Below are positions 10,678 through 40,214 of a stretch of DNA of 64,000 nucleotides, piece after piece. The stretch comes from Streptomyces pristinaespiralis (GTDB lineage Bacteria > Actinomycetota > Actinomycetes > Streptomycetales > Streptomycetaceae). Position 1 is the stretch's first letter. Each line of letters begins with the position of its first letter. A program made the position numbers and the translations under genes. Under the pieces are notes generated by a model. The model saw only the letters and a program-made list of their open reading frames with translations. It searched no databases and was not told the DNA's origin. The stretch covers positions 3,472,001 through 3,536,000 of the forward strand of contig NZ_CP011340.1 in NCBI RefSeq assembly GCF_001278075.1. The letters are read 5' to 3'.

Positions 10678-10689
10678 CTACGCGCGTAG
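10678..10689. promoter_or_regulatory. Nucleoside-regulon palindrome at the purine nucleoside phosphorylase promoter
   Basis: CTACGCGCGTAG, perfect 12-bp palindrome. The -10 hexamer TACCCT is at 10702-10707 and the GTG start at 10715, so the palindrome sits over the -35 position. Binding here would compete with RNA polymerase. Confidence 0.75.
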
Positions 10690-10714
10690 GAATTCCCGGG
10701 TTACCCTCATCCGC

Positions 10715-11545
10715 GTGAACGCATCTGTGAATCCGGACCTCGTCGGCGCTCTCGCCGACCCCCACGCCGCGGCCGACGCCGCCGCCGCCCGCCTGCGCGA
10801 GCTGACCGGCACCGAGACCCACGACGTCGCACTGGTGATGGGTTCCGGCTGGGCTCCGGCCGTCGACGCGCTCGGTACCCCCGAGGCCGAGTTCCCCGTC
10901 ACCGAACTGCCCGGCTTCCCGCCCCCGGCGGTCGAGGGCCACGGCGGCAAGGTCCGCTCGTACCGCATCGGCCAGAAGCGCGCGCTGGTCTTCCTCGGCC
11001 GTACGCACTTCTACGAGGGCCGCGGCGTCTCGGCCGTCGCCCACGGCGTGCGCACCGCGGTCGCGGCCGGCTGCAAGACCGTGGTGCTGACCAACGGCTG
11101 CGGCGGCCTGCGCGACGGCATGCGTCCCGGGCAGCCGGTGCTGATCAGCGACCACATCAACCTGACGGCGGCGTCGCCGATCATCGGCGCGAACTTCGTG
11201 GACCTGACCGACCTCTACTCGCCGCGGCTGCGGGCGCTGTGCAAGGAGGTGGACGCGACGCTCGAGGAGGGCGTGTACGTCCAGTTCCCCGGCCCCCACT
11301 ACGAGACCCCGGCCGAGATCAACATGGTCCGCGTGCTCGGCGGCGACCTGGTGGGCATGTCCACCGTCCTCGAGGCCATCGCGGCACGCGAGGCCGGCGC
11401 GGAGGTGCTGGGCATCTCGCTGGTCACGAACCTGGCGGCGGGGCTCTCGGGCGAGCCGCTGAACCACGAGGAAGTGCTGCAGGCGGGCCGTGATTCCGCG
11501 GCGCGGATGGGTGAACTGCTGACGAGGGTGCTGGAACGCATCTGA
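10715..11545 (+). CDS. punA: Purine nucleoside phosphorylase
   Basis: 276 residues, trimeric PNP/MTAP family. It splits purine (deoxy)nucleosides with phosphate into base and (deoxy)ribose-1-phosphate. Visible motifs: the phosphate-binding [36 protein letters not shown], and the substrate region [27 protein letters not shown], ending SLVTNLAAG. The GTG at 10715 lies seven bases after TACCCT (leaderless). It is controlled by the palindrome shared with deoC, add, deoA and the nucleoside transporter. Confidence 0.93.
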
Positions 11546-11639
11546 GACGGCGTGGGCGGGGCGTGGGCGTGTCCCCTCCCCGCCCCTTCCCGAACCCGGG
11601 GCACGCCCGCTCCCGGGAGCGACGTCTCCCGCCCCTGCC

Positions 11640-12720
11640 GGCGCGCGGGCGCCCGAGGGGCGGGGTCGGTCCGGGAAGCCGAGCCCGGCCGGAGCGGGGA
11701 GCCCAGGTCCGGGATGCCGCGTCCCGGCAGAGCCGGGCTCCACGAGGCCGGTCCGGGGAGAGTCCGAAGCCGGAAAACGGACCCGACTCTCGGAACGCCG
11801 GGCCCGGACCGAGCCGGCGAAGCCCGGGCCCGGAAGCCAGGACGGACGGAGCCCGGCTCGAAACCGGCTCCAGGCACAGCACAGCCGATGCCGGGCAACC
11901 GGGCCCGGACCGAACCGGCGGATCCGGCGGATCCGGCGGATCCGGACCAGCCGAAGCCCTGGTCCGGGAACCCGGGACCGGCCGAGCCGACGACCTGGGG
12001 CCGGGCGGTCCGGCAAGGGCCGAGCCCGGGCCGGGGAAGCCAGGCCGAACCGGCGGATCTGGTCCGGTCGAAGCCCGGTCCCGAAAACCGGGACCGGACC
12101 GAGCCGGCGAAGCCCGGGGCCGGGAACCCCGATTCAGGCAGAACCCGGTGCCGGACAGCCGGGACCGGGCCGGGACACGGGTCGGGCGAAGCCCGAGCCG
12201 GGAAAGCCAGGGCCGGGCCGAGCCGGGGTACCGGAAAGGCCGGCCGGGCCGGGCAAAGTTCCGGAACGCCGGCCCAGGTAAAGCTGGTACCGGAAGCCGG
12301 GACCGGACCGAGCCGGGGTACCGGGAAAGCCGGCCGGGCCGGGCGCAGTTCCGGCCCAGCCGAAGCCCTGGTCCGGGAACCCGGGACCGGCCGAGCCGAC
12401 GGCCCTGGGTCCGGGCGGAGCCCGGCCCGGCAAGGGCCGGACGGAGCCCGGCTCGAAACCGGACCAGGCACAGCCCGATACCGGGCAGCCGGACCCGGAC
12501 CGAACCGGCGATCTGGTCCGGTCGAAGCCTGGTCCCGAAAACCGGGACCGGACCGGGACACGGGTCGGGCGAAGCCCCGGCCGGGCAAAGTTCCGGAACG
12601 CCGGCCCAAGCAAAGCCCGGTGCCGGACAGCTGGGACCGGACCGGGACACGGGGTCGGGCGAAGCCCGAGCCGGGACCAGGCCGAGCCGGCGGCCATGGG
12701 TCCGGGCGGGCCGGGAGGCA
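11640..12720. repeat. 1.1-kb GC-rich mosaic repeat between punA and the phosphomutase gene
   Basis: Intergenic block built from short CCGGGACCGGACCGAGCC-like words and longer dispersed copies. A 45-base segment at 11947-11991 recurs exactly at 12356-12400. A 43-base segment around 12058 recurs around 12511 with one change. A roughly 50-base segment around 12155 recurs around 12623. A three-copy 9-bp unit (GATCCGGCG) sits near 11930. Several frames stay open through it only because stop codons are avoided by base composition; the encoded text is Pro/Gly/Arg-rich and family-less. No gene is supported in 11546-12859. Confidence 0.85.
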
Positions 12721-12859
12721 GGACCGGCGGTGGGGGTCCCCGCGGCCGCCGGGCCGTAGGGGAGGGTCGGGGAAACAACGCCCCCGCGGGCGTTGCGACT
12801 CGCGGGCCGCGGCCCGCCCCGCGCAGACTCGAGACAGCGAAGACGAGAGGCGGACAACC

Positions 12860-14515
12860 GTGCAGCAGGAGCAGGACCTGATCGCCCGGGCCGAGGCATG
12901 GCTCGCGGAGGACCCGGACTCTGAGACCCGGGAGGAGCTCGCGAGGCTCATCGAGGCGCGCGATCTCGGTGAGCTGGCCGACCGGTTCGGCGGGACGCTC
13001 CAGTTCGGTACCGCCGGGCTCCGGGGGGAGCTCGGGGCCGGGCCGATGCGGATGAACCGGGCCGTCGTGATCCGGGCGGCGGCCGGCCTCGCGGCCTACC
13101 TGAAGAGCAAGGGGCAGACCGACGGCCCCGTCGTCGTGGGCTACGACGCCCGCTACAAGTCCGCCGACTTCGCGCGCGACACCGCCGCGGTGATGGTCGC
13201 CGCGGGCCTGCGCGCCGCCGTGCTGCCGCGCCCGCTCCCGACGCCCGTCCTGGCCTTCGCCATAAGGCACCTGGGTGCCGTCGCGGGCGTCGAGGTGACG
13301 GCGAGCCACAATCCTCCGCGGGACAACGGCTACAAGGTCTACCTGGGCGACGGTTCGCAGATCGTGCCGCCCGCCGACGCGGAGATCGCCGCCGAGATCG
13401 ACGCGATCCGCGCCCTCGCCGACGTGCCGCGCGCCGACGAGGGCTGGGAGACGCTCGGTGACGAGGTGCTCGACGCCTATCTCGCGCGTACGGACGCCGT
13501 GCTGACGGCCGGCTCCCCCCGTACCGCCCAGGTCGTCTACACGGCCATGCACGGCGTCGGCAAGGACGTCGTGACGGCCGCCTTCGCGCGCGCCGGTTTC
13601 CCGGACCCGGTCCTGGTGGCGGAGCAGGCGGAGCCCGATCCCGCGTTCCCGACGGTCGCGTTCCCGAACCCGGAGGAGCCGGGGGCGATGGACCTCGCCT
13701 TCGAGACCGCTCGCCGGGCCGGGCCCGACGTGGTCATCGCCAACGACCCGGACGCGGACCGCTGCGCCGTCGCCGTCCCGGACGACACCGCGGACGGCGG
13801 CTGGCGGATGCTGCGCGGTGACGAGGTCGGCGCCCTGCTCGCCGAGCACCTCGTCCACAAGGGCGCCACCGGCGTCTTCGCCGAGTCGATCGTGTCGTCG
13901 TCGCTGCTGGGCCGGATCGCGGCCGCCGCCGGGGTCGGGTACGAGGAGACGCTGACCGGGTTCAAGTGGATCGCCCGCGTCGAGGGCCTTCGCTACGGCT
14001 ACGAGGAGGCGCTCGGCTACTGCGTCGACCCGGAGGGCGTACGCGACAAGGACGGCATCACGGCGGCGCTGCTGGTGGCCGAGCTGGTCTCGGAGCTGAA
14101 GGAGCAGGGCCGTACGCTCGGCGACCTGCTGGACGACCTCGCCGTCGAGCACGGTCTGCACGCCACCGACCAGCTGTCGGTGCGGGTGAAGGACCTGGGC
14201 ATCATCGCGAACGCCATGCGGGCGCTGCGCGAGCAGCCGCCGGCCGCCCTGGCGGGCCTGCGCGTCACGGCGGCGGAGGATCTGGCCGTCGGGACGGACA
14301 GGCTCCCGCCGACCGACGGTCTGCGCTACTACCTCGACGGCGAGTTCAAGGCCCGTGTCATCGTCCGCCCGAGCGGTACGGAGCCGAAGCTGAAGTGCTA
14401 CCTGGAGGTCGTCGTCCCGGTCGCCGACGCGAGCGCGCTCGCATCGGCCAGGGCGCGCGCCTCGCAGGTGCTCGACGGCATCAAGCGGGACCTGTCCGCC
14501 GCCGCCGGCATCTGA
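12860..14515 (+). CDS. Phospho-sugar mutase (alpha-D-phosphohexomutase family), probable phosphopentomutase role
   Basis: 551 residues. Active-site phosphoserine loop GVEVTASHNPPRDNGYKVY, metal loop IANDPDADRCAV, sugar-specificity loop GYEEALGYCV and phosphate-binding RPSGTEPKLKCYLE are all present in order. By family it interconverts sugar 1- and 6- (or 5-) phosphates. It lies between purine nucleoside phosphorylase and deoC, and its length and QFGTAGLRGELGAGPMRMN start resemble the PGM2-like branch that includes phosphopentomutases. I infer (deoxy)ribose-1-P to -5-P conversion, feeding DeoC. GTG start with a GAGAGG ribosome site. The long upstream repeat separates it from punA, and no palindrome precedes it. 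Confidence 0.9.
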   Translation: MQQEQDLIARAEAWLAEDPDSETREELARLIEARDLGELADRFGGTLQFGTAGLRGELGAGPMRMNRAVVIRAAAGLAAYLKSKGQTDGPVVVGYDARYKSADFARDTAAVMVAAGLRAAVLPRPLPTPVLAFAIRHLGAVAGVEVTASHNPPRDNGYKVYLGDGSQIVPPADAEIAAEIDAIRALADVPRADEGWETLGDEVLDAYLARTDAVLTAGSPRTAQVVYTAMHGVGKDVVTAAFARAGFPDPVLVAEQAEPDPAFPTVAFPNPEEPGAMDLAFETARRAGPDVVIANDPDADRCAVAVPDDTADGGWRMLRGDEVGALLAEHLVHKGATGVFAESIVSSSLLGRIAAAAGVGYEETLTGFKWIARVEGLRYGYEEALGYCVDPEGVRDKDGITAALLVAELVSELKEQGRTLGDLLDDLAVEHGLHATDQLSVRVKDLGIIANAMRALREQPPAALAGLRVTAAEDLAVGTDRLPPTDGLRYYLDGEFKARVIVRPSGTEPKLKCYLEVVVPVADASALASARARASQVLDGIKRDLSAAAGI

Positions 14516-14530
14516 CCGCGAACGGCGTCC

Positions 14531-14569
14531 GGCGCTCGCCGCGGTCCGGTCCGGGCCGCGGCGGGCGCC
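14531..14569. terminator. Terminator of the phosphomutase gene
   Basis: 14-bp stem with one G-T wobble (14531-14544 with 14556-14569), between the mutase stop and the convergent PH-domain gene. Confidence 0.75.
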
Positions 14570-14625
14570 GTCCCGTGAAGTCCGTGCTCCCGCTCGCAGC
14601 CCGCCCGGTGACGGGCAGCGGCGGG

Positions 14626-15261
14626 TCAGCCGGTCGCGAGGAGCACCGCGAGGAGAACCGCGCCCGCGACCGCAGGCGCCAGCACCTCGTACGCCCAGCG
14701 GATCTGCGGCGCGCCCTGGGCCTCGGCGGCGGAGGACCGGCGTTCCGCCAGTTCCCGCAGGTCGGCGATGGTCTGGTCGGCCGGGGCGATCCGGGACTTC
14801 GCGTCGCTCACGTCGGCGTGCACCGACGTCGTGCCGTGCGGGTCGTCGTAGGCGGCCTGGGCCTGCCGCCGGGCCGCGGCCTTGCGCTTGCGCAGCGAGA
14901 CGGGGATGGCCCAGAGCTGGTACTTCGAGCCGTCCTGCGTGAAGATCTCGCTGGAGTAGGAGGCCCGCACGTCAGCCACGCTGCCCCACGGCAGGACGAT
15001 GGTGCGGAACGGGTTCCTGATCCGGATGCGGTCCTCGCCCGCGAAGACGGCCGGGCGGAAGGTGAACGCGACGACGACCGGCACAGCGAGCAGCGCGCCG
15101 GCGAGGGCGAGCCACGGCGTGCGGCCCTCACCGCGGACGACGGCGTCGACGACGATCCAGGCGATGAGCCCGAGCAGCACGGCACCACCCGCCATTCCGG
15201 CGGGCGAACGGAAGACCCGGTCGCTGTCGGTGGAGGGCTCGGGCTGCTGGGGGCTCGTCAT
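14626..15261 (-). CDS. PH-domain-containing membrane protein
   Basis: 211 residues. Two N-terminal transmembrane helices (AGGAVLLGLIAWIVVDAVV and PWLALAGALLAVPVVVAF) precede a bacterial PH-like domain (about 70-125: FAGEDRIRIRNPFRTIVLPW, YSSEIFTQDGSKYQLWAIPV), a charged helical segment, and a C-terminal helix (EVLAPAVAGAVLLAVLLATG). Function unknown. The ATG at 15261 follows CAGAAT by seven bases, a leaderless arrangement; the longer frame to 15360 is not supported. Confidence 0.8.
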   Translation of the reverse strand: MTSPQQPEPSTDSDRVFRSPAGMAGGAVLLGLIAWIVVDAVVRGEGRTPWLALAGALLAVPVVVAFTFRPAVFAGEDRIRIRNPFRTIVLPWGSVADVRASYSSEIFTQDGSKYQLWAIPVSLRKRKAAARRQAQAAYDDPHGTTSVHADVSDAKSRIAPADQTIADLRELAERRSSAAEAQGAPQIRWAYEVLAPAVAGAVLLAVLLATG

Positions 15262-15375
15262 GGCTCCGATTCTGCCGCACGCGGTTTCCGGGACCCCGGT
15301 TCGGGGTGGCGCTGCGCGGGCCGCGGCTTCTGCCCTGTTTCGGGCAGAGTTTGCGCGCACCCCCTGTACAGGTCG

Positions 15376-15387
15376 CTACGCGCGTAG
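15376..15387. promoter_or_regulatory. Nucleoside-regulon palindrome at the deoC promoter
   Basis: Perfect CTACGCGCGTAG directly before a TATGCT -10 hexamer (15389-15394), which precedes the GTG start at 15401 by six bases. The site therefore occupies the -10/-35 spacer. Confidence 0.75.
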
Positions 15388-15400
15388 ATATGCTCATCTG

Positions 15401-16354
15401 GTGACCATGCCCACCACCGCACCTGCATTCGCCGACGTGACCGCGTCCGACAGCACTCTGCGCCGCTTCCTGCACGGGCTGCCCGGCGTCGACGCCGTCG
15501 GCCTCGAAGGCCGCGCAGCGTCCCTCGGCACGCGTTCCATCAAGACCACGGCCAAGGCGTACGCCATCGATCTGGCCATCTCCATGATCGACCTGACGAC
15601 GCTCGAAGGCGCGGACACCCCGGGCAAGGTCCGGGCGCTCGCCGCCAAGGCCGTCAACCCCGACCCGACCGACCGCACCACGCCGACGACCGCCGCGGTC
15701 TGCGTCTACCCCGACATGGTGGCGACCGCCAAGGAGGCCCTGAAGGGCTCCCAGGTCAAGGTCGCCTCCGTGGCGACCGCCTTCCCGGCCGGCCGCGCCG
15801 CCCTCCCCGTGAAGATCGCTGACGTCCGTGACGCGGTCGCCGCCGGGGCGGACGAGATCGACATGGTGATCGACCGCGGCGCCTTCCTGGCCGGCGACTA
15901 CATGAAGGTGTACGAGGAGATCCTCGCCGTGAAGGAGGCCTCGGGCAGCGCCCGGCTCAAGGTCATCTTCGAGACCGGCGAGCTCTCCACGTACGACAAC
16001 ATCCGCCGCGCCTCGTGGCTCGGCATGATCGCCGGCGCCGACTTCATCAAGACGTCGACCGGCAAGGTCGCCGTGAACGCCACCCCGGCGAACACCCTGC
16101 TGATGCTCCAGGCCGTGCGCGACTTCAAGGAGCAGACTGGGGTACAGGTGGGCGTGAAGCCCGCCGGCGGTATCCGTACGTCCAAGGACGCGATCAAGTT
16201 CCTCGTCCTGGTCAACGAGACCGCGGGCGAGGACTGGCTGGACAGTCACTGGTTCCGCTTCGGCGCGTCGAGCCTGCTCAACGACCTGCTGATGCAGCGG
16301 CAGAAGCTGGCGACCGGCCGCTACTCCGGCCCTGACTACGTGACGGTGGACTGA
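15401..16354 (+). CDS. deoC: Deoxyribose-phosphate aldolase
   Basis: 317 residues, class I aldolase cleaving 2-deoxyribose-5-phosphate to glyceraldehyde-3-phosphate and acetaldehyde. Key pieces: MIDLTTLEGADTPGKVRAL, CVYPDMV, ADEIDMVIDRGAFLAGDY, the segment KVIFETGEL, and the Schiff-base lysine region ADFIKTSTGKVAVNATP, followed by VGVKPAGGIRTSKDA. GTG 15401 suits a leaderless transcript, and ATG 15407 is the alternative. The first aldehyde dehydrogenase gene starts 5 bases after the stop, so acetaldehyde producer and remover are cotranscribed. Confidence 0.94.
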   Translation: MTMPTTAPAFADVTASDSTLRRFLHGLPGVDAVGLEGRAASLGTRSIKTTAKAYAIDLAISMIDLTTLEGADTPGKVRALAAKAVNPDPTDRTTPTTAAVCVYPDMVATAKEALKGSQVKVASVATAFPAGRAALPVKIADVRDAVAAGADEIDMVIDRGAFLAGDYMKVYEEILAVKEASGSARLKVIFETGELSTYDNIRRASWLGMIAGADFIKTSTGKVAVNATPANTLLMLQAVRDFKEQTGVQVGVKPAGGIRTSKDAIKFLVLVNETAGEDWLDSHWFRFGASSLLNDLLMQRQKLATGRYSGPDYVTVD

Positions 16355-16359
16355 TCATC

Positions 16360-17796
16360 ATGGCTTCCGTATTCGAATACGCACCCGCGCCCGAGTCGCG
16401 GTCGATCGTCGACATCGCCCCGTCCTACGGGCTGTTCATCGACGGCGAGTTCTCCGACGCCGCGGACGGCAAGGTCTTCAAGACCGTCTCGCCGTCGAGC
16501 GAGGAGGTTCTGGCCGAGGTCGCCCGGGCGGGCGCCGAGGACGTGGACCGTGCGGTGAAGGCCGCCCGTAAGGCGTTCGGGAAGTGGTCGGCCCTGCCCG
16601 GCGCGGAGCGCGCCAAGTACCTCTTCCGTATCGCGCGGATCATCCAGGAGCGCAGCCGAGAGCTGGCCGTCCTGGAGACCCTGGACAACGGCAAGCCGAT
16701 CAAGGAGACCCGCGACGCGGACCTCCCGCTGGTCGCCGCGCACTTCTTCTACTACGCGGGCTGGGCCGACAAGCTCGACCACGCCGGCTACGGCGCGAAC
16801 CCGCGCCCGCTGGGTGTCGCGGGCCAGGTCATCCCGTGGAACTTCCCGCTCCTGATGCTCGCGTGGAAGATCGCCCCGGCGCTCGCCACCGGCAACACGG
16901 TGGTCCTGAAGCCCGCGGAGACGACGCCGCTGTCCGCGCTGTTCTTCGCGGACATCTGCCGCCAGGCCGGCCTGCCGAACGGCGTGGTCAACATCCTTCC
17001 CGGCTACGGGGACACCGGTGCGGCCCTGGTCGAGCACCCGGACGTGAACAAGGTCGCCTTCACCGGCTCGACCGCGGTCGGCAAGGCCATCGCCCGCCAG
17101 GTCGCCGGGACGAGGAAGAAGGTCACCCTCGAGCTCGGCGGCAAGGGCGCCAACATCGTCTTCGACGACGCCCCCATCGACCAGGCCGTCGAGGGCATCG
17201 TCAACGGCATCTTCTTCAACCAGGGGCAGGTCTGCTGCGCGGGCTCGCGCCTGCTGGTCCAGGAGTCGATCCAGGACGAGCTGCTGGACTCCCTCAAGCG
17301 CCGCCTGTCCACGCTGCGCCTCGGCGACCCGCTGGACAAGAACACCGACATCGGGGCGATCAACTCCGAGGAGCAGCTGTCCCGGATCACGACCCTGGTC
17401 GAGGCGGGCGAGGCGGAGGGCGCCGAGCGCTGGTCGCCCGCGTGCGAGCTGCCGTCCTCCGGCTACTGGTTCGCGCCGACGCTGTTCACGAATGTCACGC
17501 AGGCGCACACCATCGCCCGCGACGAGATCTTCGGCCCGGTGCTCTCCGTGCTGACGTTCCGCACGCCGGACGAGGCCGTCGCCAAGGCGAACAACAGCCA
17601 GTACGGCCTGTCCGCCGGCATCTGGACGGAGAAGGGCTCCCGCATCCTCGCGGTGGCCAACAAGCTCCGCGCGGGTGTGGTGTGGGCCAACACGTTCAAC
17701 AAGTTCGACCCGACCTCGCCGTTCGGCGGCTACAAGGAGTCGGGCTTCGGCCGCGAGGGCGGCCGTCACGGTCTGGAGGCCTACCTCGATGTCTGA
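16360..17796 (+). CDS. Aldehyde dehydrogenase (full-length, catalytic)
   Basis: 478 residues. It oxidises an aldehyde with NAD(P). Motifs: PWNFPLLMLAWKIAPALATG, GSTAVGKAIARQVAG (cofactor loop), general-base Glu in LELGGKGANIVFDD, nucleophile in FFNQGQVCCAGSR, and EIFGPVLSVLTFRTPDEAV. It follows deoC by 5 bases and overlaps the next gene. Acetaldehyde from DeoC is the natural candidate substrate. Together with the next gene it corresponds to the two halves of ALDH16-type proteins. Confidence 0.93.
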   Translation: MASVFEYAPAPESRSIVDIAPSYGLFIDGEFSDAADGKVFKTVSPSSEEVLAEVARAGAEDVDRAVKAARKAFGKWSALPGAERAKYLFRIARIIQERSRELAVLETLDNGKPIKETRDADLPLVAAHFFYYAGWADKLDHAGYGANPRPLGVAGQVIPWNFPLLMLAWKIAPALATGNTVVLKPAETTPLSALFFADICRQAGLPNGVVNILPGYGDTGAALVEHPDVNKVAFTGSTAVGKAIARQVAGTRKKVTLELGGKGANIVFDDAPIDQAVEGIVNGIFFNQGQVCCAGSRLLVQESIQDELLDSLKRRLSTLRLGDPLDKNTDIGAINSEEQLSRITTLVEAGEAEGAERWSPACELPSSGYWFAPTLFTNVTQAHTIARDEIFGPVLSVLTFRTPDEAVAKANNSQYGLSAGIWTEKGSRILAVANKLRAGVVWANTFNKFDPTSPFGGYKESGFGREGGRHGLEAYLDV

Positions 17797-18676
17797 CGGG
17801 CGACTCAGCGTCTTCAAGACCTACAAGCTGTACGTCGGGGGCAAGTTCCCCCGCTCCGAGAGCGGCCGGGTGTACGAGGTGACGGACTCCAAGGGCAAGT
17901 GGCTGGCCAACGTGCCGCTCTCGTCCCGCAAGGACGCGCGTGACGCGGTCGTCGCCGCGCGCAAGGCGTTCGGCGGCTGGTCGGGCGCGACCGCGTACAA
18001 CCGCGGGCAGATCCTCTACCGCATCGCCGAGATGCTGGAGGGCCGCAAGGACCAGTTCGTCCGCGAAGTCGCGCAGTCGGAGGGCCTGTCCAGGTCCAAG
18101 GCGGCGGACGTCGTCGACGCGGCGATCGACCGCTGGGTCTGGTACGCGGGCTGGACGGACAAGATCGCCCAGGTCGTGGGCGGGGCGAACCCGGTGGCGG
18201 GCCCGTTCTTCAACCTCTCCACCCCGGAGCCGACGGGTGTCGTGACGATCGTCGCGCCGCAGGAGTCGTCGTTCCTCGGCCTGGTCTCCGTGGTCGCGCC
18301 GGTGATCGCCGCCGGCAACACCGTCGTCGTCGTGGCGTCCGAGCGGGCCCCGCTCCCCGCTCTCTCCCTCGGCGAGGTGCTCGCCACCTCCGACCTGCCG
18401 GGCGGCGTGGTCAACGTGCTCTCCGGCCGTACGGCGGAGATCGCCGCCCCGCTCGCCGCGCACCAGGACGTCAACGGCATCGACCTGACCGGCGCGGACG
18501 AGGTCCTGGCGAAGGAGCTCGAGGTCGCGGCCGCGGACAACCTGAAGCGGGTCTTCCGTCCACAGGCTGTGGATTACTCCGCGGACCCCGGCACGCACCG
18601 CCTGACGGCGTTCCTCGAGACCAAGACGGTCTGGCACCCGACCGGTTCGCTGGGCGCCTCCGGTTCGGCGTACTGA
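17789..18676 (+). CDS. Truncated aldehyde dehydrogenase-like protein lacking the catalytic domain
   Basis: 295 residues. The sequence follows ALDH from KTYKLYVGGKFPRSESGRVY through the cofactor fold (APQESSFLGLVSVVAPVIAAG) but has no nucleophile Cys motif and no ELGGK base. After IDLTGADEVLAKELEVAAAD it ends in a short Trp/Pro-containing tail. It is intact, not frameshifted, and starts inside the stop region of the preceding ALDH gene (8-base overlap), so the two are translationally coupled. It resembles the noncatalytic second domain of ALDH16 and is probably a structural partner of the first protein. Confidence 0.88.
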   Translation: MSDGRLSVFKTYKLYVGGKFPRSESGRVYEVTDSKGKWLANVPLSSRKDARDAVVAARKAFGGWSGATAYNRGQILYRIAEMLEGRKDQFVREVAQSEGLSRSKAADVVDAAIDRWVWYAGWTDKIAQVVGGANPVAGPFFNLSTPEPTGVVTIVAPQESSFLGLVSVVAPVIAAGNTVVVVASERAPLPALSLGEVLATSDLPGGVVNVLSGRTAEIAAPLAAHQDVNGIDLTGADEVLAKELEVAAADNLKRVFRPQAVDYSADPGTHRLTAFLETKTVWHPTGSLGASGSAY

Positions 18677-18693
18677 CGCCGCCGGCACAGGCC

Positions 18694-18729
18694 GAAGCCC
18701 CCGCCTCTCCGTCCGGAGGCGGGGGCTTC
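18694..18729. terminator. Terminator of the deoC-ALDH operon
   Basis: Perfect 14-bp stem (18694-18707 with 18716-18729), 8-base loop, 17 bases after the stop. Confidence 0.85.
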
Positions 18730-18762
18730 CCCATGAGCACGTCCCGATCCGGGCGCGAGGCG

Positions 18763-19119
18763 CTACGGCAGCAGCGACGCGGCGACCGGCCCGGCCACCG
18801 GGAGGTCCTCGAGCGCCTGGCCCTTGGTGATGTTGTCCGTCGCCATCGCCGTGCTGACCGGCTTGAAGTCGGCGACCTGCGTGCCGACCGCGTTGTCGAG
18901 CGGGTCCACACCGGTGTTGGCCAGCGGGTGGAGCTGAAGACTCTTGAGCTCGCCCACGCCGCTCACCGAGTTGGTGACGAGCCCGGTGGCCGTCCCCACC
19001 GGCACGGCCGCGTTGGCCGTCGCCCCGCCCGCGCCGAGCGCGGCTCCCGCCGCCGCGACGGTGAGTCCGGCGCGCAGCAGTGTGCGCCGGTTGTTCTTGG
19101 AAGCTGCGTGACGAGCCAT
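18763..19119 (-). CDS. Small secreted protein with Tat-like signal peptide
   Basis: 118 residues. The N terminus has KNNRRTLLRAG followed by a hydrophobic Ala/Gly-rich stretch and an Ala-rich cleavage region (GGATANAAV), consistent with a Tat or Sec signal peptide. The mature part (about 80 residues) is rich in Gly, Val and Thr with no recognisable domain. Start taken at the ATG at 19119; another in-frame ATG lies at 19128. Family unknown to me beyond similar small exported Streptomyces proteins. Confidence 0.7.
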   Translation of the reverse strand: MARHAASKNNRRTLLRAGLTVAAAGAALGAGGATANAAVPVGTATGLVTNSVSGVGELKSLQLHPLANTGVDPLDNAVGTQVADFKPVSTAMATDNITKGQALEDLPVAGPVAASLLP

Positions 19120-19237
19120 GGATTCCATCCCATCAAGTGATCGTGCGCGTACGGAAAGTGGTCGGCGGTGTGATGCTCGTACCAACCGGACCTCCGGGGG
19201 GTTCCGGGAGCCGCTCGATGCGTCACACTTGTCTCCC

Positions 19238-19876: not shown

Positions 19877-19883
19877 GGCCTCT

Positions 19884-19989
19884 CGTTCGGATCCTGCCGG
19901 GCTCGCGCCTGATCCGAACGACGGACCCCGGCCGCCCGGACATGGGAGTGGGGCCGGACAGAACCCCCCGGCCTGTCCGGCCCCACTCC
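19884..19989. terminator. Tandem terminators between the kinase gene and sigQ
   Basis: A 10-bp stem (19884-19893 with 19911-19920) followed by a perfect 17-bp stem (19945-19961 with 19973-19989) and a TTTT run. It serves both convergent genes. Bases 20000-20105 hold C-rich direct repeats containing CCGTCTCCCCCGAAAC twice. Confidence 0.85.
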
Positions 19990-20112
19990 GTTTTCCCCCG
20001 TGGATCCCCGTGTCCCCCGTGGATCCTTCCGCCGTCTCCCCCGAAACAGCGGTCCTGCCGTCTCCCCCGAAACGGCAGCCCCCGTACTTCCCCCGTGTTT
20101 CCCCCGTTGCCT

Positions 20113-26108: not shown

Positions 26109-27245
26109 TCAGTGCCCGCCTGTGGCGGTCTGCCGGAAGAGCCATTCGGACTTGAGTTCGGCGTAGCCCGGCTTGATGACGTCGCTGATCATCGCCAGTC
26201 GTTCATCGAAAGGGATGAACGCGGACTTCATCGCGTTGACGGTGAACCACTGCATGTCGTCGAGCGTGTATCCGAACGCCTCGGTCAGCAGCTCGAACTC
26301 GCGGCTCATGCTGGTGCCGCTCATCAGCCGGTTGTCGGTGTTGACCGTGGTCCTGAAGTGCAGCTTCCGCAGCAGCCCGATGGGATGGGCCGCGATGGAG
26401 TCGGCGGCCCCCGTCTGCAGGTTGGAGGTGGGGCACATCTCCAGCGGGATGCGCTTGTCCCGTACGTACGCGGCGAGCCTGCCCAGCTTCACCGTGCCGT
26501 CCTCCGCCACCTCGATGTCGTCGATGATCCGCACGCCGTGCCCGAGCCGGTCGGCGCCGCACCACTGGAGCGCCTGCCAGATCGAGGGCAGCCCGAACGC
26601 CTCGCCCGCGTGGATGGTGAAGTGGTTGTTCTCGCGCTTCAGGTACTCGAAGGCGTCGAGGTGCCGGGTGGGCGGGAAACCCGCCTCCGCGCCGGCGATG
26701 TCGAACCCGACGACGCCGCTGTCGCGGTAGCGGTTGGCGAGCTCGGCGATCTCCAGCGCGCGGGCGGCGTGCCGCATCGCGGTGAGCAGCGCGCCGACCC
26801 GGATGCGGTGACCGCTCTCGCGTGCCAGCCGCTCCCCCTCGCGGAAGCCCTCGTTGACCGCCTCGACGACCTCCTCGAGGCTCAGGCCGCCCTCGAGGTG
26901 CTGCTCGGGGGCGTAGCGGACCTCGGCGTAGACGACCCCGTCCTCCGCCAGGTCCTGTGCGCACTCCGCGGCCACGCGGAAGAGCGCGTCACGGGACTGC
27001 ATCACGGCGCAGGTGTGCGCGAAGGTCTCCAGGTAGCGTTCCAGCGAGCCCGAGTCCGCGGCCTCCCGGAACCAGATGCCGAGCTTGTCGGGTTCGGCCT
27101 CCGGAAGGGCCTCGTACCCGGCGTCGCGGGCGAGTTCGATGATCGTGCCCGGCCGCAGACCGCCGTCCAGGTGGTCGTGGAGCAGCACCTTCGGGGCGCG
27201 GCGGATCTGGTCCGCGGTGGGCGAATTGAGGGTCTGGCTCGTCAT
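26109..27245 (-). CDS. add: Adenosine deaminase
   Basis: 378 residues. It deaminates (deoxy)adenosine to (deoxy)inosine, the substrate of purine nucleoside phosphorylase. Zinc ligands and catalytic residues are visible: LHDHLDGG (HxH), [15 protein letters not shown] (His and catalytic Glu), [18 protein letters not shown], and [10 protein letters not shown], where Asp-Asn replaces the usual Asp-Asp as in other actinobacterial members. The ATG at 27245 lies six bases after a TAGAGT -10 hexamer (leaderless) and just downstream of the nucleoside palindrome. Confidence 0.94.
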
Positions 27246-27261
27246 CTGCGCACTCTAGCCC

Positions 27262-27273
27262 CTACGCGCGTAG
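27262..27273. promoter_or_regulatory. Nucleoside-regulon palindrome at the add promoter
   Basis: Perfect CTACGCGCGTAG, 17 bases before the add start codon. The TAGAGT -10 hexamer (minus strand, 27257-27252) lies between it and the ATG, so the site covers the -10 to -35 interval. Confidence 0.75.
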
Positions 27274-29293: not shown

Positions 29294-29317
29294 CGGCCGG
29301 CCCGACGTCCCGGCGGG

Positions 29318-30311: not shown

Positions 30312-30321
30312 AATCGGAGCC

Positions 30322-30327: not shown

Positions 30328-30333
30328 CGACGT

Positions 30334-31605: not shown

Positions 31606-31709
31606 AACACTCCCGGTCCCACCCCTGATTCTCCCGTCCGGCGGTGAGTGTCAGTGGCCTGCGGTAGCTTTCGAAGCGGTGGTACCGATGGGTGACAGGG
31701 GTGGACCCG

Positions 31710-32723
31710 ATGAGTGACCTGGCAGCGACGCAGGACCTGGATTCGCGGCTGGAGCAGCACCGCAGAGAGCTGACCGGCTACTGCTACCGCATGCTCGGCT
31801 CGTCCTTCGAGGCGGAGGACGCCGTCCAGGACACGATGGTCCGGGCGTGGCGAAGTTTCGACAAGTTCGAGGGCCGGTCCTCCCTGCGCTCATGGCTGTA
31901 CCGCATCGCGACGAATGTGTGCCTCGACATGCTGAACGCCGGTAACCGCCGCGCCCGCCCGATGGACCTCTCCGGTCCCACACCGGTCGCGCAGGCCCAG
32001 CTCAACGCCCGCCCCGAGATCACCTGGCTCGAGCCCGTTCCCGACGGGCGGGTGCTGCCCTCGGTGGTGGACCCGGCCGAGACGGCCGTGGAGCGGGAGA
32101 CGATCCGCCTCGCGTTCGTCGCGGCCCTCCAGCATCTGCCGCCCAAGCAGCGGGCGGTCCTGATCCTGCGCGAGGTGCTGGCCTGGAAGGCGAGCGAGGT
32201 CGCCGAGCTCCTCGGCACGACGGTCGCCTCGGTCAACAGCGCGCTCCAGCGCGCCCGCGCCACGCTCAGCGAGCAGAGCCCGGCCTCTTCCGACGCGGCG
32301 GACCCGCTCGACGAGGAGCAGCAGCAGCTGCTGGAGCGCTATGTCGCGGCCTTCGAGGGGTACGACATGAAGGCGCTGACAGCGCTGCTCCACGAGGACG
32401 CCACGATGTCCATGCCCCCTTACGATCTGTGGCTGCGCGGCCACGACGACATCGTGGGCTGGATGCTCGGCGTCGGCGACGTCTGCCGTGGCTCGCGCCT
32501 GGTCCCGACCGTGGCCAACGGCGCCCCCGCGTTCGCCCACTACCACCCGTCGGCGGACGGCGAGGGGTACGAGCCGTGGGCGCTCATCGTCCTCGAGCTG
32601 TCGGAGGGCAAGGTGGGCGGGATGGACTTCTTCCTGGACACCAAGCGCTGGTTCCCGCTGTTCGACCTGCCGGCACGGCTGGACAAGACGGGTGCCCCGG
32701 TGGCGGAGGAGGAGCCCGCCTAG
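31710..32723 (+). CDS. ECF sigma factor with SnoaL-like C-terminal domain
   Basis: 337 residues, longer than a standard ECF sigma. Region 2: GYCYRMLGSSFEAEDAVQDT, FEGRSSLRSWLYRIATNVCL. Region 4: LPPKQRAVLILREVLAWKAS, LLGTTVASVNSALQRARATL. A C-terminal SnoaL/NTF2-like domain of about 130 residues follows (QQQLLERYVAAFEGYDMKAL onward), as in SigG/SigJ-type (ECF41/56-like) factors, where the domain replaces an anti-sigma factor. ATG 31710 preferred, with upstream GTG/ATG at 31701/31692 possible. It overlaps the convergent STAS gene by 4 bases. Confidence 0.9.
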   Translation: MSDLAATQDLDSRLEQHRRELTGYCYRMLGSSFEAEDAVQDTMVRAWRSFDKFEGRSSLRSWLYRIATNVCLDMLNAGNRRARPMDLSGPTPVAQAQLNARPEITWLEPVPDGRVLPSVVDPAETAVERETIRLAFVAALQHLPPKQRAVLILREVLAWKASEVAELLGTTVASVNSALQRARATLSEQSPASSDAADPLDEEQQQLLERYVAAFEGYDMKALTALLHEDATMSMPPYDLWLRGHDDIVGWMLGVGDVCRGSRLVPTVANGAPAFAHYHPSADGEGYEPWALIVLELSEGKVGGMDFFLDTKRWFPLFDLPARLDKTGAPVAEEEPA

Positions 32724-33025
32724 GCGGCGTCGGCCAGTTCCGGCAGGCCCACCAGGTCCAGCAGGGTGAGCAGGTCGGGTCCGGCGTTCCTCAGCCGGAG
32801 CCGGCTGCCGTGCCGCCGCGCCGTGAGGTGCAGGCGCGCGAGGGCGTCGACGGCGGCGAGGTTCACCTGGGCCAGCCCGCCGACGTCGCAGAACACCTCA
32901 CAGGGAGCTCCGCCGCCTGTCCCGTCGTCGCGGAGCAGGTGGCGGAGTTCCTCACACAGGCGCGGCACATCGGCCGGGGTGATCCTCCCGGTGATGTGCA
33001 TGACGGCAGGCTTTATGGCGTCCAC
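32720..33025 (-). CDS. STAS-domain protein (anti-anti-sigma-like)
   Basis: 101 residues covering one STAS domain: ITGRITPADVPRLCEELRHL ... CEVFCDVGGLAQVNLAAVDALARLHL. In classical anti-anti-sigma factors the loop is DSSGL with a phosphorylatable Ser. Here it reads VNLAAV, so no kinase target is present and the protein would act, if at all, without a phosphorylation switch. It is tail-to-tail with the ECF sigma gene. Intergenic 33026-33159 shows nothing clear. Confidence 0.8.
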   Translation of the reverse strand: MDAIKPAVMHITGRITPADVPRLCEELRHLLRDDGTGGGAPCEVFCDVGGLAQVNLAAVDALARLHLTARRHGSRLRLRNAGPDLLTLLDLVGLPELADAA

Positions 33026-33159
33026 ACCGGAAGAGACCGGCGCCGCGACGGGAACTCATCGCAGCGCTCCGGACGGGGCCGGTGACAAATACCGGCCCCG
33101 GTCCCTCCCCCGCGGTCGCGGGATGCCGTCGCACCGGGGCGGGCACGCTTCCGCGCGGG

Positions 33160-34437
<1,278 letters not shown>

Positions 34438-34466
34438 GGCATTCCTCCAGGTTGGTCTGCCGCGCT

Positions 34467-34478
34467 CTACGCGCATAG
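34467..34478. promoter_or_regulatory. Nucleoside-regulon palindrome (one mismatch) upstream of deoA
   Basis: CTACGCGCATAG, 11 of 12 consensus bases. On the deoA strand a TACCCT hexamer (34488-34483) precedes it, so the site would overlap the transcription start of a deoA-proximal promoter between cdd and deoA. Confidence 0.68.
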
Positions 34479-34555
34479 AGAGAGGGTAAGGGAGCGGCCC
34501 CTCCACCGAAGCGGAAGGGCCGCGGGGTGCCGGGCCGGAAGCCCGGCCGGGCTTC

Positions 34556-34954
34556 CTAGTCGAGGTGCCCGGGGCCGAAGGCCTGCGGGAGCATCTCGGC
34601 GAGCGGCAGGACCCCGCCTGGGGTGTCCAGCAGCAGCTCCGGGCCGCCGAACTCGTACAGCAGCTGACGGCAGCGGCCGCACGGCACCAGCAGCTCGCCC
34701 CGGCCGTCCACACAGGTGAAGTGCGTCAGGCGGCCGCCACCGGTCGCCTGGAGCTGCGAGACCAGGCCGCACTCGGCGCACAGGCCGAGCCCGTACGAGG
34801 CGTTCTCGACGTTGCAGCCGGTCACCGTGCGGCCGTCGTCGACGAGGGCGGCGACACCGACCGGGAAGCCCGAGTAGGGGGCGTACGCGTGCGACATCGC
34901 CTCACGCGCACGTACCCGCAGGGCCTCCCAGTCGAAGCCGGCTTCCGCGCTCAC
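34556..34954 (-). CDS. cdd: Cytidine deaminase
   Basis: 132 residues, tetrameric zinc enzyme converting (deoxy)cytidine to (deoxy)uridine. Zinc and catalytic motif GCNVENASYGLGLCAECGLV (Cys-Ala-Glu) and PCGRCRQLLYEFGG. The GTG start overlaps the stop of the upstream permease gene by 4 bases (GTGA), so translation is coupled to the transporter. Its product feeds DeoA or uridine phosphorolysis. Confidence 0.94.
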   Translation of the reverse strand: MSAEAGFDWEALRVRAREAMSHAYAPYSGFPVGVAALVDDGRTVTGCNVENASYGLGLCAECGLVSQLQATGGGRLTHFTCVDGRGELLVPCGRCRQLLYEFGGPELLLDTPGGVLPLAEMLPQAFGPGHLD

Positions 34955-36219
34955 TTGCCCTGGCCCCTGAAGTACGGCTGTCCGTTGGCCTTCGGCATGC
35001 GCAGCCGCTGTGCGGACACGGCGAGTACGAGCAGCGTGGCCACGTACGGTGCCGCGTCGACGAACTGGCTCGGGAGCTCGTCCGTGAGCGCGTACCAGGT
35101 GAACAGCAGCGCCGAGAAGGCGGCCGAGATCACGGCCCCGACGTACTTCTTCCGGTACAGCTGCCAGACCACCGCGATCAGCAGCAGGATGGCGAGCAGC
35201 AGCAGCATCGCGTGGACGTTCACGGCGCCGCCGCGCAGCTTGAGGCTGTCGGTGAAGCCGAACAGGCCGGCTCCCAGCGCCATACCGCCGGGCATCCAGT
35301 TACCGAAGATCATGGCGGCGAGACCGATGTAGCCGCGGCCGCCGGTCTGGCCCTCCTGGTAGATGCCGGTGATGATCGCGAGGAACGCGCCACCGAGGCC
35401 GGCCAGTCCGCCGGAGACGATGACGGCGATGTACTTGTACTTGTAGACGTTGACACCGAGCGACTCGGCGGCGATCGGGTTCTCACCGCAGGACCGCAGG
35501 CGCAGGCCGAACGACGTCCGCCACAGCAGCCACCAGGTGCCGGGGACCAGCAGCAGGGCGACGACGGTGAGCAGCGACAGGTTGGTGACCAGACCGCCCA
35601 GCACACCGGCCAGGTCGGAGACGAAGAACCAGTGCTTGGCCTGGAGGTCGCCCAGCCAGTCGGAGAGCCCGGGGATCGTGATCCGCTCGATGGCGTCGAT
35701 ACGCGGCGACTGCTTGGAGGAGCCGCCCTCGGTCTCCGCGAAGGTGAAGTTCGACATGTACCGGGTGAGGCCGGTGGCCAGGATGGTGATGGCCACACCG
35801 GAGACGATGTGGTTGACCTTGAACGTCACCGTCATCACCGCGTGCAGCAGACCGCCGAGCGCGCCGCCGGCGATGCCGAGCAGCACACCGGTCCACGGGC
35901 CCCACTGGTAGCCCGCCCAGGCGCCGAACCAGGTGCCGAGGATCATCATGCCCTCGAGGCCGATGTTGATCACACCGGCCCGCTCGGCCCACAGACCGCC
36001 GAGGCCGGCGAGGCCGATCGGCACGGCCAGCTGGAGCGCGCCGGAGACCTGGCCGACGGAGGTGAGGTCGTCCGCGCCGCTGATCACCCGCACGAGGGAG
36101 AACAGCGCCAGGCCGCCCGCGACGATCAGCAGGATCACGGGCAGGGACAGCTTGCGGCGGCCGCCGCCCTTCTTGGGCGCGGTGCTCGCCATGGAGACAG
36201 TGCTCGTGGACTCGCTCAT
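34951..36219 (-). CDS. Nucleoside ABC transporter permease (second)
   Basis: 422 residues, BPD_transp_2 family with about 9-10 helices. Characteristic AVPIGLAGLGGLWAERAGVINIGLEGMM (split here: AVPIGLAGLGGLWAER and GVINIGLEGMM) and LRSCGENPIAAESLGVNVYK near the coupling region. It pairs with the adjacent permease and BMP lipoprotein in the YufN/O/P/Q-type purine nucleoside importer. Overlaps both neighbours by 4 bases (ATGA and GTGA), one polycistron. Confidence 0.92.
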   Translation of the reverse strand: MSESTSTVSMASTAPKKGGGRRKLSLPVILLIVAGGLALFSLVRVISGADDLTSVGQVSGALQLAVPIGLAGLGGLWAERAGVINIGLEGMMILGTWFGAWAGYQWGPWTGVLLGIAGGALGGLLHAVMTVTFKVNHIVSGVAITILATGLTRYMSNFTFAETEGGSSKQSPRIDAIERITIPGLSDWLGDLQAKHWFFVSDLAGVLGGLVTNLSLLTVVALLLVPGTWWLLWRTSFGLRLRSCGENPIAAESLGVNVYKYKYIAVIVSGGLAGLGGAFLAIITGIYQEGQTGGRGYIGLAAMIFGNWMPGGMALGAGLFGFTDSLKLRGGAVNVHAMLLLLAILLLIAVVWQLYRKKYVGAVISAAFSALLFTWYALTDELPSQFVDAAPYVATLLVLAVSAQRLRMPKANGQPYFRGQGK

Positions 36220-37321
36220 GCCGCCGCCACCTCCTTGTTCTTGCGGGCCTGGGCGGCAAGCTCCTCGCCGACCTTCTGCTGCTGGCGGCGGAGCCCGTAC
36301 TGACGGACCAGCTCGTAGGACACGACGACCGCGATCACGATCAGGCCCTGCATGATCAGCGCCAGTTCCTTCGGGTAACCCTCGAGCCCGATGCCTTCGG
36401 CCGTCTTGTCGAGGAAGGCGAAGAGCAGCGAGGCGAAGAGGATGCCGATCGGGTTGTTGCGGCCGAGCAGGGCGATGCCGATGGCGGTGAAGCCGACGCC
36501 GACCGGGAAGCTCAGGCTGTAGGTGTGGGTCTGGCCGAGCAGCATCGGCATACCGGCGAGGCCGGCCATGGCGCCGGAGATCAGCATGGCCGTGAGGACC
36601 ATCTTCTTGGCGTCGACACCGCTCGCCTGGGCGGCGGACTCGCTGGCGCCGGTGGCGCGCAGGTCGAAGCCGAAGCGGGTGCGTCCGAGGACGAACCAGT
36701 AGACGATGCCCAGCGCGAAGGCCACGAAGGTGAAGCCGTAGATGGTGCCGCCGTCCAGCGCCAGACCGGGGAACCAGCCGGACTCGGCGATCTCACCGGT
36801 GGTCAGGTCGTTGGAACCCTCGGGCCGCACGCCGAGGTTCGCGGGCAGGATCATCCAGGCGATCAGGCTGGTCGCGATGGCGTTGAGCATGATCGTGGAG
36901 ACGACCTCGCTCACGCCGCGGGTGGTCTTGAGGACTCCCGCGATACCGGCCCAGAAGGCTCCGACGGCCATGGCGACGACCACGATGAGCAGGATGTGCA
37001 GCGGGCCGGGCAGCTCCACCGCGGCACCGACGACGGCGGCGAGCATGACCGCGAGGCGGTACTGGCCGTCGACGCCGATGTTGAACAGGTTCATCCGGAA
37101 GCCGATGGCGACGGCCAGAGCCGCCAGGTAGTAGATGCCCGTCTGGTTGATGACCAGCACCTGCACATCGGTGAACTCGATCTGCTCCACCATCAGCCGG
37201 TACGGCTCGACCGGGCTGAGGTCCGAGAGCAGCAGCACCACCGAGCTGAGCAGGAAGGCCACGACCAGGGCGAGCGCCGGGCCCGCCAGGCCGAGGATCA
37301 GCCGGTCCTTGTCGAACTTCT

Positions 37322-37325
<4 letters not shown>
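36216..37325 (-). CDS. Nucleoside ABC transporter permease (first)
   Basis: 369 residues, BPD_transp_2 family. Helices run through RLILGLAGPALALVVAFLLS, TGIYYLAALAVAIGFRMNLF, NIGVDGQYRLAVMLAAVVGA and GVGFTAIGIALLGRNNPIG. LRATGASESAAQASGVDAKK is the coupling loop. The ATG overlaps the ATPase stop by 4 bases. It works with the next permease as a heterodimeric channel. Confidence 0.92.
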
Positions 37326-38884
<1,559 letters not shown>

Positions 38885-38982
38885 GACGCACTCTCCTTGG
38901 CGGGAGGAGCAGGGAGGGCAGGCGGAAGGGGCGGGCTGTGAGTGGCAGGGGGCGGGGCGAAGTTATCGCGCCTGAGCGCCTT

Positions 38983-38994
38983 CTACGCGCGTAG
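38983..38994. promoter_or_regulatory. Nucleoside-regulon palindrome upstream of the transporter operon
   Basis: Perfect CTACGCGCGTAG, 99 bases before the proposed ATPase start, in the gap after the BMP gene. It implies a separate regulated promoter for the ATPase-permease-permease-cdd series. Confidence 0.72.
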
Positions 38995-39029
38995 CGCTCC
39001 CGAATACCAAAAACCCGGGGCCGGAAACG

Positions 39030-39069
39030 GTCCGCGGGCCTTGGGGCTTGCGCCCCGGGGCCCGCGGAC
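39030..39069 (-). terminator. Terminator after the BMP lipoprotein gene
   Basis: GTCCGCGGGCC (39030-39040) pairs with GGCCCGCGGAC (39059-39069), with an inner GGGGC/GCCCC stem. It limits, but may not block, readthrough from the BMP gene into the transporter operon. Confidence 0.8.
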
Positions 39070-39088
39070 TGCGGTTCCGGCCGCTCGG

Positions 39089-40141
39089 TTACGGAGCGGT
39101 CTGGACCTTGACCGTGCCGGCGATGATGTCGGCCTTGGCCTTGTCCACCGCGGCGATGACGTCCGTCATCTTGGTGAAGGCCGGGTTGGAGGTCGACAGG
39201 CCCACGCCGTTGTCCTGGAGGCCGTAGCGGACCTCACCGGTCTGCGGCTTGCCGTCCTTGACCGACTTGATCAGGTTGAACACGGCACCCGAGACGTTCT
39301 TGGTGACCGAGGTCAGGATCTGGTCCTTGTAGGCGGCCAGACCCTTCTGGTTGTACTGGTCGGAGTCGACGCCGATGGCCCACTTGCCGGCCTTGGCGGT
39401 CGCCTCGATCGAGCCGGAGCCCGCGAGACCGGCGGCCGCGTAGATCACGTCGGCGCCCGCGTCGAGCTGGCCCTGCGCGGCGGCCTTGCCGAGGTCCGGC
39501 TTCGAGAAGCCACCGAAGTCCGGCGGCTGCGTCAGGTACTGGACCTTGACGTTGACGCCCTGCTTGGTGTCCTTGACGCCCTGGACGAAGCCCGCCTCGA
39601 ACTTCTTGATCAGCGGGGTCTCCACACCGCCGATGAAGCCGACGGTGTTCGTCTTCGTCACCTTGGCGGCGGCGACACCGGCGAGGTAGGAGCCCTGCTC
39701 CTCGTTGAACACCAGGTTGGCGATGTTCGGGCCGGTCTTGGAGGTGTCGTCGATGAGACCGAAGGTCGTCTTCGGGAACTTCGGGGCGACCTCGGCGATG
39801 GCGGGCGCGTAGGCGAAACCGACACCGATCACCGGGTTGTTGCCGGCGCGGGCCAGCGCGGTGAGGCGCTGGATCTTGTCCGGGTCACCCTCGCCCTCGC
39901 TGGGCTCGGCCTCGCTGCCCGTGATGTCGAGTTCCTTCTCGGCCTTCTCCAGGCCCGCGAAGGCGGCGTCGTTGAACGACTGGTCGCCACGGCCACCGAT
40001 GTCGTACGCGATGGCGGCCTTGCCGCCGTTGTCTTCCGAGCCGCCCGACTCGGAAGACTTGTTGCCGCCACACGCGGTGGCAGACAGTGCGAGAGCCGCG
40101 GACGCGATGCCCACGGTGGCGATCCTGGTGATCCGGCGCAC
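39089..40141 (-). CDS. BMP-family nucleoside-binding lipoprotein
   Basis: 350 residues. Lipoprotein signal peptide MRRITRIATVGIASAALALS with Cys in SATACGGN (about residue 24), then a Bmp/Med domain: AIAYDIGGRGDQSFNDAAFA, NPVIGVGFAYAPAIAEVAPK, VGFIGGVETPLIKKFEAGFV, GADVIYAAAGLAGSGSIEA, GVDSDQYNQKGL. Substrate-binding component of the importer encoded next. GTG start with AAAGGAG. Promoter TACGAT (minus strand 40204-40199) abuts a two-mismatch copy of the regulon palindrome. High expression of the binding protein from its own promoter is typical. Confidence 0.94.
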   Translation of the reverse strand: MRRITRIATVGIASAALALSATACGGNKSSESGGSEDNGGKAAIAYDIGGRGDQSFNDAAFAGLEKAEKELDITGSEAEPSEGEGDPDKIQRLTALARAGNNPVIGVGFAYAPAIAEVAPKFPKTTFGLIDDTSKTGPNIANLVFNEEQGSYLAGVAAAKVTKTNTVGFIGGVETPLIKKFEAGFVQGVKDTKQGVNVKVQYLTQPPDFGGFSKPDLGKAAAQGQLDAGADVIYAAAGLAGSGSIEATAKAGKWAIGVDSDQYNQKGLAAYKDQILTSVTKNVSGAVFNLIKSVKDGKPQTGEVRYGLQDNGVGLSTSNPAFTKMTDVIAAVDKAKADIIAGTVKVQTAP

Positions 40142-40202
40142 TGGGGGGCTCCTTTAAACCTGACCGAAAGCGCCACTTCCGGCGCTGGGTTCGCGGCGAT
40201 CG

Positions 40203-40214
40203 TAACGCGCGTAG
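40203..40214. promoter_or_regulatory. Nucleoside-regulon palindrome variant at the BMP promoter
   Basis: TAACGCGCGTAG on the plus strand (CTACGCGCGTTA on the gene strand), two mismatches to consensus and touching the TACGAT -10 hexamer. Confidence 0.6.

Follow-up and report, generated by a model that had tools for sequence, protein, structure and literature searches.

In the 64,000-nucleotide window of the Streptomyces pristinaespiralis chromosome analysed here (NZ_CP011340.1, positions 3,472,001 to 3,536,000), the palindrome CTACGCGCGTAG recurs at the core promoters of nucleoside-salvage genes. It is probably the operator of a LacI-family repressor governing a nucleoside and nucleobase regulon throughout the Streptomycetaceae, and the protein most likely to bind it is encoded far from the window, beside glnR. 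Perfect copies start at 10678, 15376, 27262 and 38983, preceding the genes for purine nucleoside phosphorylase (PNP), deoC, add and an ABC transporter operon, and imperfect copies stand at 34467 (deoA, one mismatch) and 40203 (a BMP-type lipoprotein, two mismatches). All six sites surround a -10-like hexamer of the form TAnnnT, at differing distances. The positions, the core-promoter placement and the gene identities given in the initial annotation, which also proposed that the recurrence is not due to chance, are borne out by the features below; the gene identities agree with profile matches, those for the transporter lying below cut-off.

10678..10689, + strand: operator CTACGCGCGTAG at the PNP gene, 12 bp upstream of TACCCT (10702-10707)
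10715..11545, + strand: purine nucleoside phosphorylase (TIGR01698 and NF006054 over cut-off)
15376..15387, + strand: operator CTACGCGCGTAG at deoC, 1 bp upstream of TATGCT (15389-15394)
15407..16354, + strand: deoC, deoxyribose-phosphate aldolase (TIGR00126 over cut-off)
26109..27245, - strand: add, adenosine deaminase (NF006847 over cut-off)
27262..27273, - strand: operator CTACGCGCGTAG at add, 4 bp upstream of TAGAGT (27252-27257)
33160..34437, - strand: deoA, thymidine/pyrimidine-nucleoside phosphorylase (NF004490 over cut-off)
34467..34478, - strand: operator variant CTATGCGCGTAG at deoA, fitting CTANNCGNNTAG, 4 bp downstream of TACCCT (34483-34488)
34556..34954, - strand: cdd, cytidine deaminase, last in the ABC gene run (NF004064 over cut-off)
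34951-36219 and 36216-37325, - strand: two ABC permeases (best NCBIfam matches are BMP-type permease models, below cut-off)
37322..38776, - strand: ABC ATPase with two nucleotide-binding halves, its start taken as the first GTG
38983..38994, - strand: operator CTACGCGCGTAG before the ABC ATPase gene, 17 bp upstream of TAACTT (38960-38965)
39089..40141, - strand: BMP-type substrate-binding lipoprotein (NF047927, BMP family, E 3.1e-27, below cut-off)
40203..40214, - strand: operator variant CTACGCGCGTTA at the BMP gene, overlapping TACGAT (40199-40204)

The whole genome (8,532,592 bases, one contig) contains exactly four perfect copies of CTACGCGCGTAG, all inside 28.3 kb of the window, where a model multiplying the window frequencies of CTA, CGCGCG and TAG predicts approximately 0.06 genome-wide. 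When up to two mismatches are allowed, the window holds seven matches against a shuffle mean of 4.46, and seven or more occurred in 21 of 100 shuffles, so that the count is not unusual; the seventh match, with two mismatches, lies at 51255 within coding-type sequence. Because this looser count is ordinary, the evidential weight falls on the perfect copies and on their conservation.

Perfect copies are present in all 61 genomes of the genus, with two to six in each, and across the family in 60 of 61 genomes and 16 of 17 genera. In a class-wide draw, a perfect copy was found in 24/24 genomes of the genus versus 10 of 222 others; nine of these ten have one copy and one genome (G133) has three. 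Within the same order, 3 of 13 genomes from other families carry a single copy, in two cases inside guaB. Gene-by-gene mapping in eight other genomes of the family revealed a perfect site at PNP and at add in every one, and at deoC in seven, the eighth having a one-mismatch form. The ABC operon retains its site in six of seven mapped genomes (five perfect, one with a single mismatch). The variant CTACGCGCGTTA is identical in all six genomes in which the BMP promoter could be examined, the upstream DNA of a seventh homolog falling outside the fetched stretch. At deoA, a site occurs in three of the eight (two CTATGCGCGTAG, one TTACGCGCGTAG), and cdd has no operator of its own. For seven of the ten perfect-copy genomes outside the family, one or more loci were read, and none of these copies stands clearly at nucleoside salvage genes.

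The regulon is broader than the six promoters and extends to genes for making purines, taking up nucleobases, breaking down pyrimidine bases, and for nucleotidases and a nuclease. Besides the perfect four, this genome has 14 one-mismatch places, and seven of them are promoters of fitting genes, deoA among them. Five others precede purS-purQ-purL (CTACCCGCGTAG; PurS, PF02700), an NCS2-type permease (PF00860), a gene for secreted endonuclease I (PF04231) and each of two secreted 5'-nucleotidase genes (PF02872). The seventh stands before a carbon-nitrogen hydrolase gene (PF00795) in a pyrimidine-catabolic run to which a dihydropyrimidinase (TIGR02033 over cut-off) and a permease of the cytosine/purine/uracil type (PF02133) also belong. 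The purSQL site recurs in all five genomes examined, as a perfect copy in G174, as CTACCCGCGTAG here, as CTACTCGCGTAG in G013 and G108 and as CTACGCGCGTTG in G316. Sites were likewise found at the first 5'-nucleotidase in four genomes, at the NCS2 permease in three and at the second 5'-nucleotidase in two; the dihydropyrimidinase run has a site in two genomes with its centre changed, and the endonuclease I site was seen in this genome only. In genus g108, a perfect site lies upstream of purN in six genomes (PurN confirmed for one). The remaining seven one-mismatch places in this genome (L007, L008, L010, L011, L012, L104 and L105) appear to be chance or coding matches. In G013 and G108, where 20 of 22 and 18 of 37 listed one-mismatch places were read, matches inside or beside unrelated genes outnumber those at regulon genes. 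The genome scan placed 4/4 perfect copies in this genome at nucleoside genes; to confine the palindrome to that one pathway is nevertheless too narrow, given the further sites at purine synthesis, nuclease and other genes.

The operator is an even palindrome, CTACGC/GCGTAG, with a central CG and a location at core promoters, as is typical of LacI-family operators, and owing to the central CG the regulator was sought among the 31 LacI genes of this genome. The initial annotation had left the regulator open; a specific LacI candidate can now be named. Its single-copy gene (genome positions 4678489-4679514) lies approximately 1.14 Mb from the window, directly downstream of the GlnR gene (PF21695) and 9 kb from the first 5'-nucleotidase. 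We take it to be the SCO4158 type, with which its place behind glnR agrees. The protein carries the recognition helix GTSTAVVSYV, matches PF00356 over cut-off and aligns over its full length with CcpA, RbsR and PurR chains. It is present in 61/61 genomes of the family at 68-100% identity and in all 67 genomes of the genus in an order-level draw (one match partial), and is absent from all 13 genomes of the order outside the family. In a tree of 45 sequences, the SCO4158 type joins proteins from Nonomuraea, Leifsonia and Agromyces (98/98), and a VVSYV branch (99/99) encloses this group and separates it from the other LacI proteins of this genome. The nearest NCBIfam models are RbsR, PurR and CytR, of which RbsR scores slightly above PurR; since all these scores fall far below the curated cut-offs, the effector cannot be read off from them. 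A two-mismatch match overlapping the start codon of the candidate gene, the feature that initially singled it out, shows no conservation and is given no weight here. No transcription factor gene with a perfect site was encountered among the one-mismatch loci read in this genome (13 of 14, the deoA place being in the window).

The link between this helix and the palindrome comes from LacI proteins elsewhere. The best 80 of at least 593 LacI homolog loci from other actinobacteria were sampled, and 17 homologs with STAVVSYV were counted outside the SCO4158 type, several of them close kin (six from Nonomuraea or [Actinomadura] parvosata, two from Leifsonia). Fifteen of the 17 have a perfect CTANNCGNNTAG at their own or their operon promoter, within palindromes that include CTAATCGATTAG, CTAATCGTTTAG and CTACTCGAATAG. 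Thirteen of these were detected by script within 250 bp upstream, where approximately 0.06 would be expected by shuffling; L184 and L195 complete the fifteen, the L195 site preceding its ribokinase-hydrolase-deaminase-lacI run. By comparison, CTANNCGNNTAG was found at none of five SPAVVSYV homologs and at none of 20 other LacI genes of this genome (20 of 29 being placeable by script). Two SPAVVSYV homologs, L171 and L172, have a different upstream palindrome, CAACACGA..TTGCGCAA..TCGTGTTG, which suggests a change of specificity with that residue. According to tblastn, with Pfam checks on a subset, 13 of the 17 relative loci encode an IU nucleoside hydrolase and nine an adenosine deaminase; L173, L187 and L208 have a divergent neighbour matching the hydrolase family weakly, below cut-off (tested for L187). 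The 175 kb of relative loci contain 27 pattern matches versus 0.19 expected from trinucleotide rates, and the three matches away from the lacI side (L187, L208) sit just upstream of further nucleoside hydrolases. In the 8.53-Mb genome studied here, CTANNCGNNTAG occurs at six places, namely the five window sites other than BMP and purSQL, while a control with the same letters and a GC centre occurs at two places, elsewhere in the genome. As 5.8 places would be expected naively from the product of window trinucleotide rates, it is the address of the six matches rather than their number that is telling. These findings point to the SCO4158-type protein as the probable ligand of CTACGCGCGTAG.

Several observations weigh against this assignment. 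The candidate gene is unlinked to the regulon, and none of 72 SCO4158-type genes has a perfect CTANNCGNNTAG at its own promoter; most of the promoters printed retain just a GCGTAG half-site at a leaderless -10. One genome, G312, possesses the protein and lacks a perfect motif. Co-occurrence inside the family says little, because motif and protein are both near-universal there. The relatives are a sample, and two of the 17, L169 and L175, have no site. The one-mismatch matches are not enriched as a class, with 18 places in this genome against 26 for the reversed control and, in other genomes, motif-to-control counts of 25/33, 42/42, 25/19 and 16/4; since this set alone is not enriched, recurrence at the same genes is what counts. 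Finally, the membership of purSQL is awkward for simple induction by nucleosides. In most of the SCO4158-type genes inspected, the coding sequence begins on or directly beside the predicted point of transcription initiation, a leaderless arrangement with a TAGACT -10.

In the mechanism that we propose, the protein would bind as a dimer seated on the central CG, its two recognition helices (GTSTAVVSYV) each contacting one of the CTA/TAG ends. By occupying the -35, the -10 or the transcription start, the repressor would block RNA polymerase at PNP, deoC, add, deoA and the ABC/BMP transporter, with a weaker effect at purSQL, the NCS2 permease, the two 5'-nucleotidases, endonuclease I and the dihydropyrimidinase operon. 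A nucleoside or a breakdown product would probably release it when the surroundings or lysed mycelium supply DNA or nucleosides. A nucleoside-type inducer is the first choice because the same-helix relatives stand beside nucleoside hydrolases.

The main rival, so ranked because purSQL and purN belong to the set, is a PurR-like scheme in which the LacI protein would bind together with a purine-base corepressor, and scarcity of purines, not a supply of nucleosides, would turn the set on. The sites at purSQL, at purN and at the NCS2 permease speak for it, and PurR is the second-best NCBIfam model for the candidate, below cut-off. However, deoC, deoA, cdd and dihydropyrimidinase are catabolic, the same-helix relatives adjoin nucleoside hydrolases, for which substrate induction is the usual logic, and the RbsR model scores slightly higher than PurR. 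We regard a purine corepressor as rather unlikely. It is less probable still that some other protein binds CTACGCGCGTAG, the operator match among the LacI relatives being coincidental or the candidate regulating something else. This would suit a candidate gene that is unlinked and without a perfect operator of its own, and one report suggests instead that SCO4158 might regulate glnR (PMC9739823). Against this reading, the eight-base pattern derived from the relatives lands on precisely the regulon when 8.5 Mb are searched.

Activation by the palindrome, with the operator replacing a -35 element, appears quite improbable. Several of the promoters lack a clear -35, and the PNP and purS sites are located at about -35, as such a role would predict. 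Yet the sites lie between 17 bp upstream and 4 bp downstream of the -10, one of them overlapping it, unlike the arrangement of an activator, and LacI-family members are mostly repressors. Such a spread of positions, beginning upstream of the -35 and reaching the transcription start, favours repression. The DeoR-family protein at 7365-8288, whose gene adjoins the PNP end of the cluster and whose relatives control nucleoside catabolism in E. coli, can be dismissed as the regulator, as the initial annotation had also supposed, because no CTACGCGCGTAG-type site precedes its gene here or in any of the eight other genomes, a different inverted repeat marks its start, and NCBIfam matches it best to the sugar-type AgaR/GlpR, with a lower, sub-cut-off score for the DeoR model. 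That repeat, GAAACTGAC ... GTCAGTTTTC (8289-8330), whose left arm occurs once, at 8289, facing the right one, is a candidate site for the DeoR-family protein itself.

The predicted SCO4158-type system resembles known LacI regulators only in part. Like PurR of E. coli, it involves a LacI-family protein, an even palindrome with a central CG and de novo purine genes; however, the candidate scores 179.8 bits against an NCBIfam cut-off of 501, and the set centres on nucleoside catabolism and uptake. CytR of E. coli, which works together with CRP, is likewise a LacI-family protein and controls nucleoside uptake and catabolism (deo-type genes), but the candidate reaches 166.8 bits against a model cut-off of 436, the present set adds purSQL, 5'-nucleotidase and nuclease genes, and there is no sign of CRP here. 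UriR of corynebacteria is another actinobacterial LacI regulator of nucleoside use, described as local (PMC4052901), whereas the present set is spread over the genome; the candidate scores 121.9 bits against a model cut-off of 550. The same comparative genomics study names AdeR, HpxR, UriR, PurR and SCO5692, and SCO4158 does not appear in its main text (PMC4052901). SCO4158 of S. coelicolor is the same protein type, a LacI protein encoded directly downstream of glnR, and control of glnR by it has been suggested as a guess (PMC9739823). Other papers list a predicted ArgR site at SCO4158 (PMC5839063) and include SCO4158 and SCO4920 among regulators responding to carbon source (PMC4848846). PMC3878966 and PMC11538686 were consulted as well, the latter of which mentions a purine iModulon. 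Within the open papers, taken without their supplementary tables, the literature search returned neither the motif CTACGCGCGTAG or TACGCGCGTA nor a regulon or operator for SCO4158.

A wider role may tentatively be considered, although we hold it to be somewhat less probable than its opposite. One LacI repressor across the Streptomycetaceae might couple the route from external DNA to nucleotides with de novo purine synthesis (purSQL, purN), sense the nucleosides of dismantled mycelium and link cell death to development and antibiotic output. The coupled route would consist of a secreted nuclease, 5'-nucleotidases, nucleoside and base transporters, phosphorylases, deaminases, and deoxyribose and pyrimidine-base breakdown. 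Judging by its title, a 2012 study by Meng et al. reportedly concerns an effect of SCO4158 on an antibiotic pigment, and the appearance of SCO4158 as an antibiotic-pigment gene would be explained by such a link between cell death and antibiotic output. If the operator assignment is correct, a LacI protein present in 61/61 Streptomycetaceae genomes examined gains a binding site, a regulon and a function that can be tested, and it would be revealed how nucleoside salvage and part of purine synthesis are controlled in these bacteria. The rule leading from the helix STAVVSYV to CTANNCGNNTAG would predict targets in Nonomuraea, Jiangella, Microbacterium, Agromyces and Leifsonia, and control of precursor supply would be relevant to nucleoside antibiotics and to the growth of production strains.

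Further observations concern the transporter and individual motif copies. By family, the transporter is a BMP-type ABC system, an assignment drawn from models that score below their curated cut-offs. Conserved homology of its ATPase reaches approximately 38884, and other genomes align from residue 1 of this longer reading. In five Streptomyces genomes, a second adenosine deaminase gene outside the cluster contains a perfect motif within codons 3-6 (MTATRV...), which may be an operator over the gene start or a coding coincidence. Of the three copies in G133, one is within a coding region, another falls in a repeat-like CG tract and the third stands between genes of a 7-deazapurine-like cluster (G133:C1:2079000-2127000). 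By eye, this cluster has GTP cyclohydrolase I-, radical-SAM QueE-, guaB- and gyrB-like genes and is possibly a 7-deazapurine product cluster; it also encodes the nearest LacI protein outside the family to the SCO4158 type, with a perfect motif 15 kb from that gene. Four genomes of genus g108 have a perfect motif approximately 40-55 bp upstream of a gene for a secreted Ig-like-domain protein (PF05345, tested for L111). Upstream of rpoB, GTACGCGCGTAG / CTACGCGCGTAC was present in all three genomes where it was seen, in the present one at genome position 3750877 (L010).

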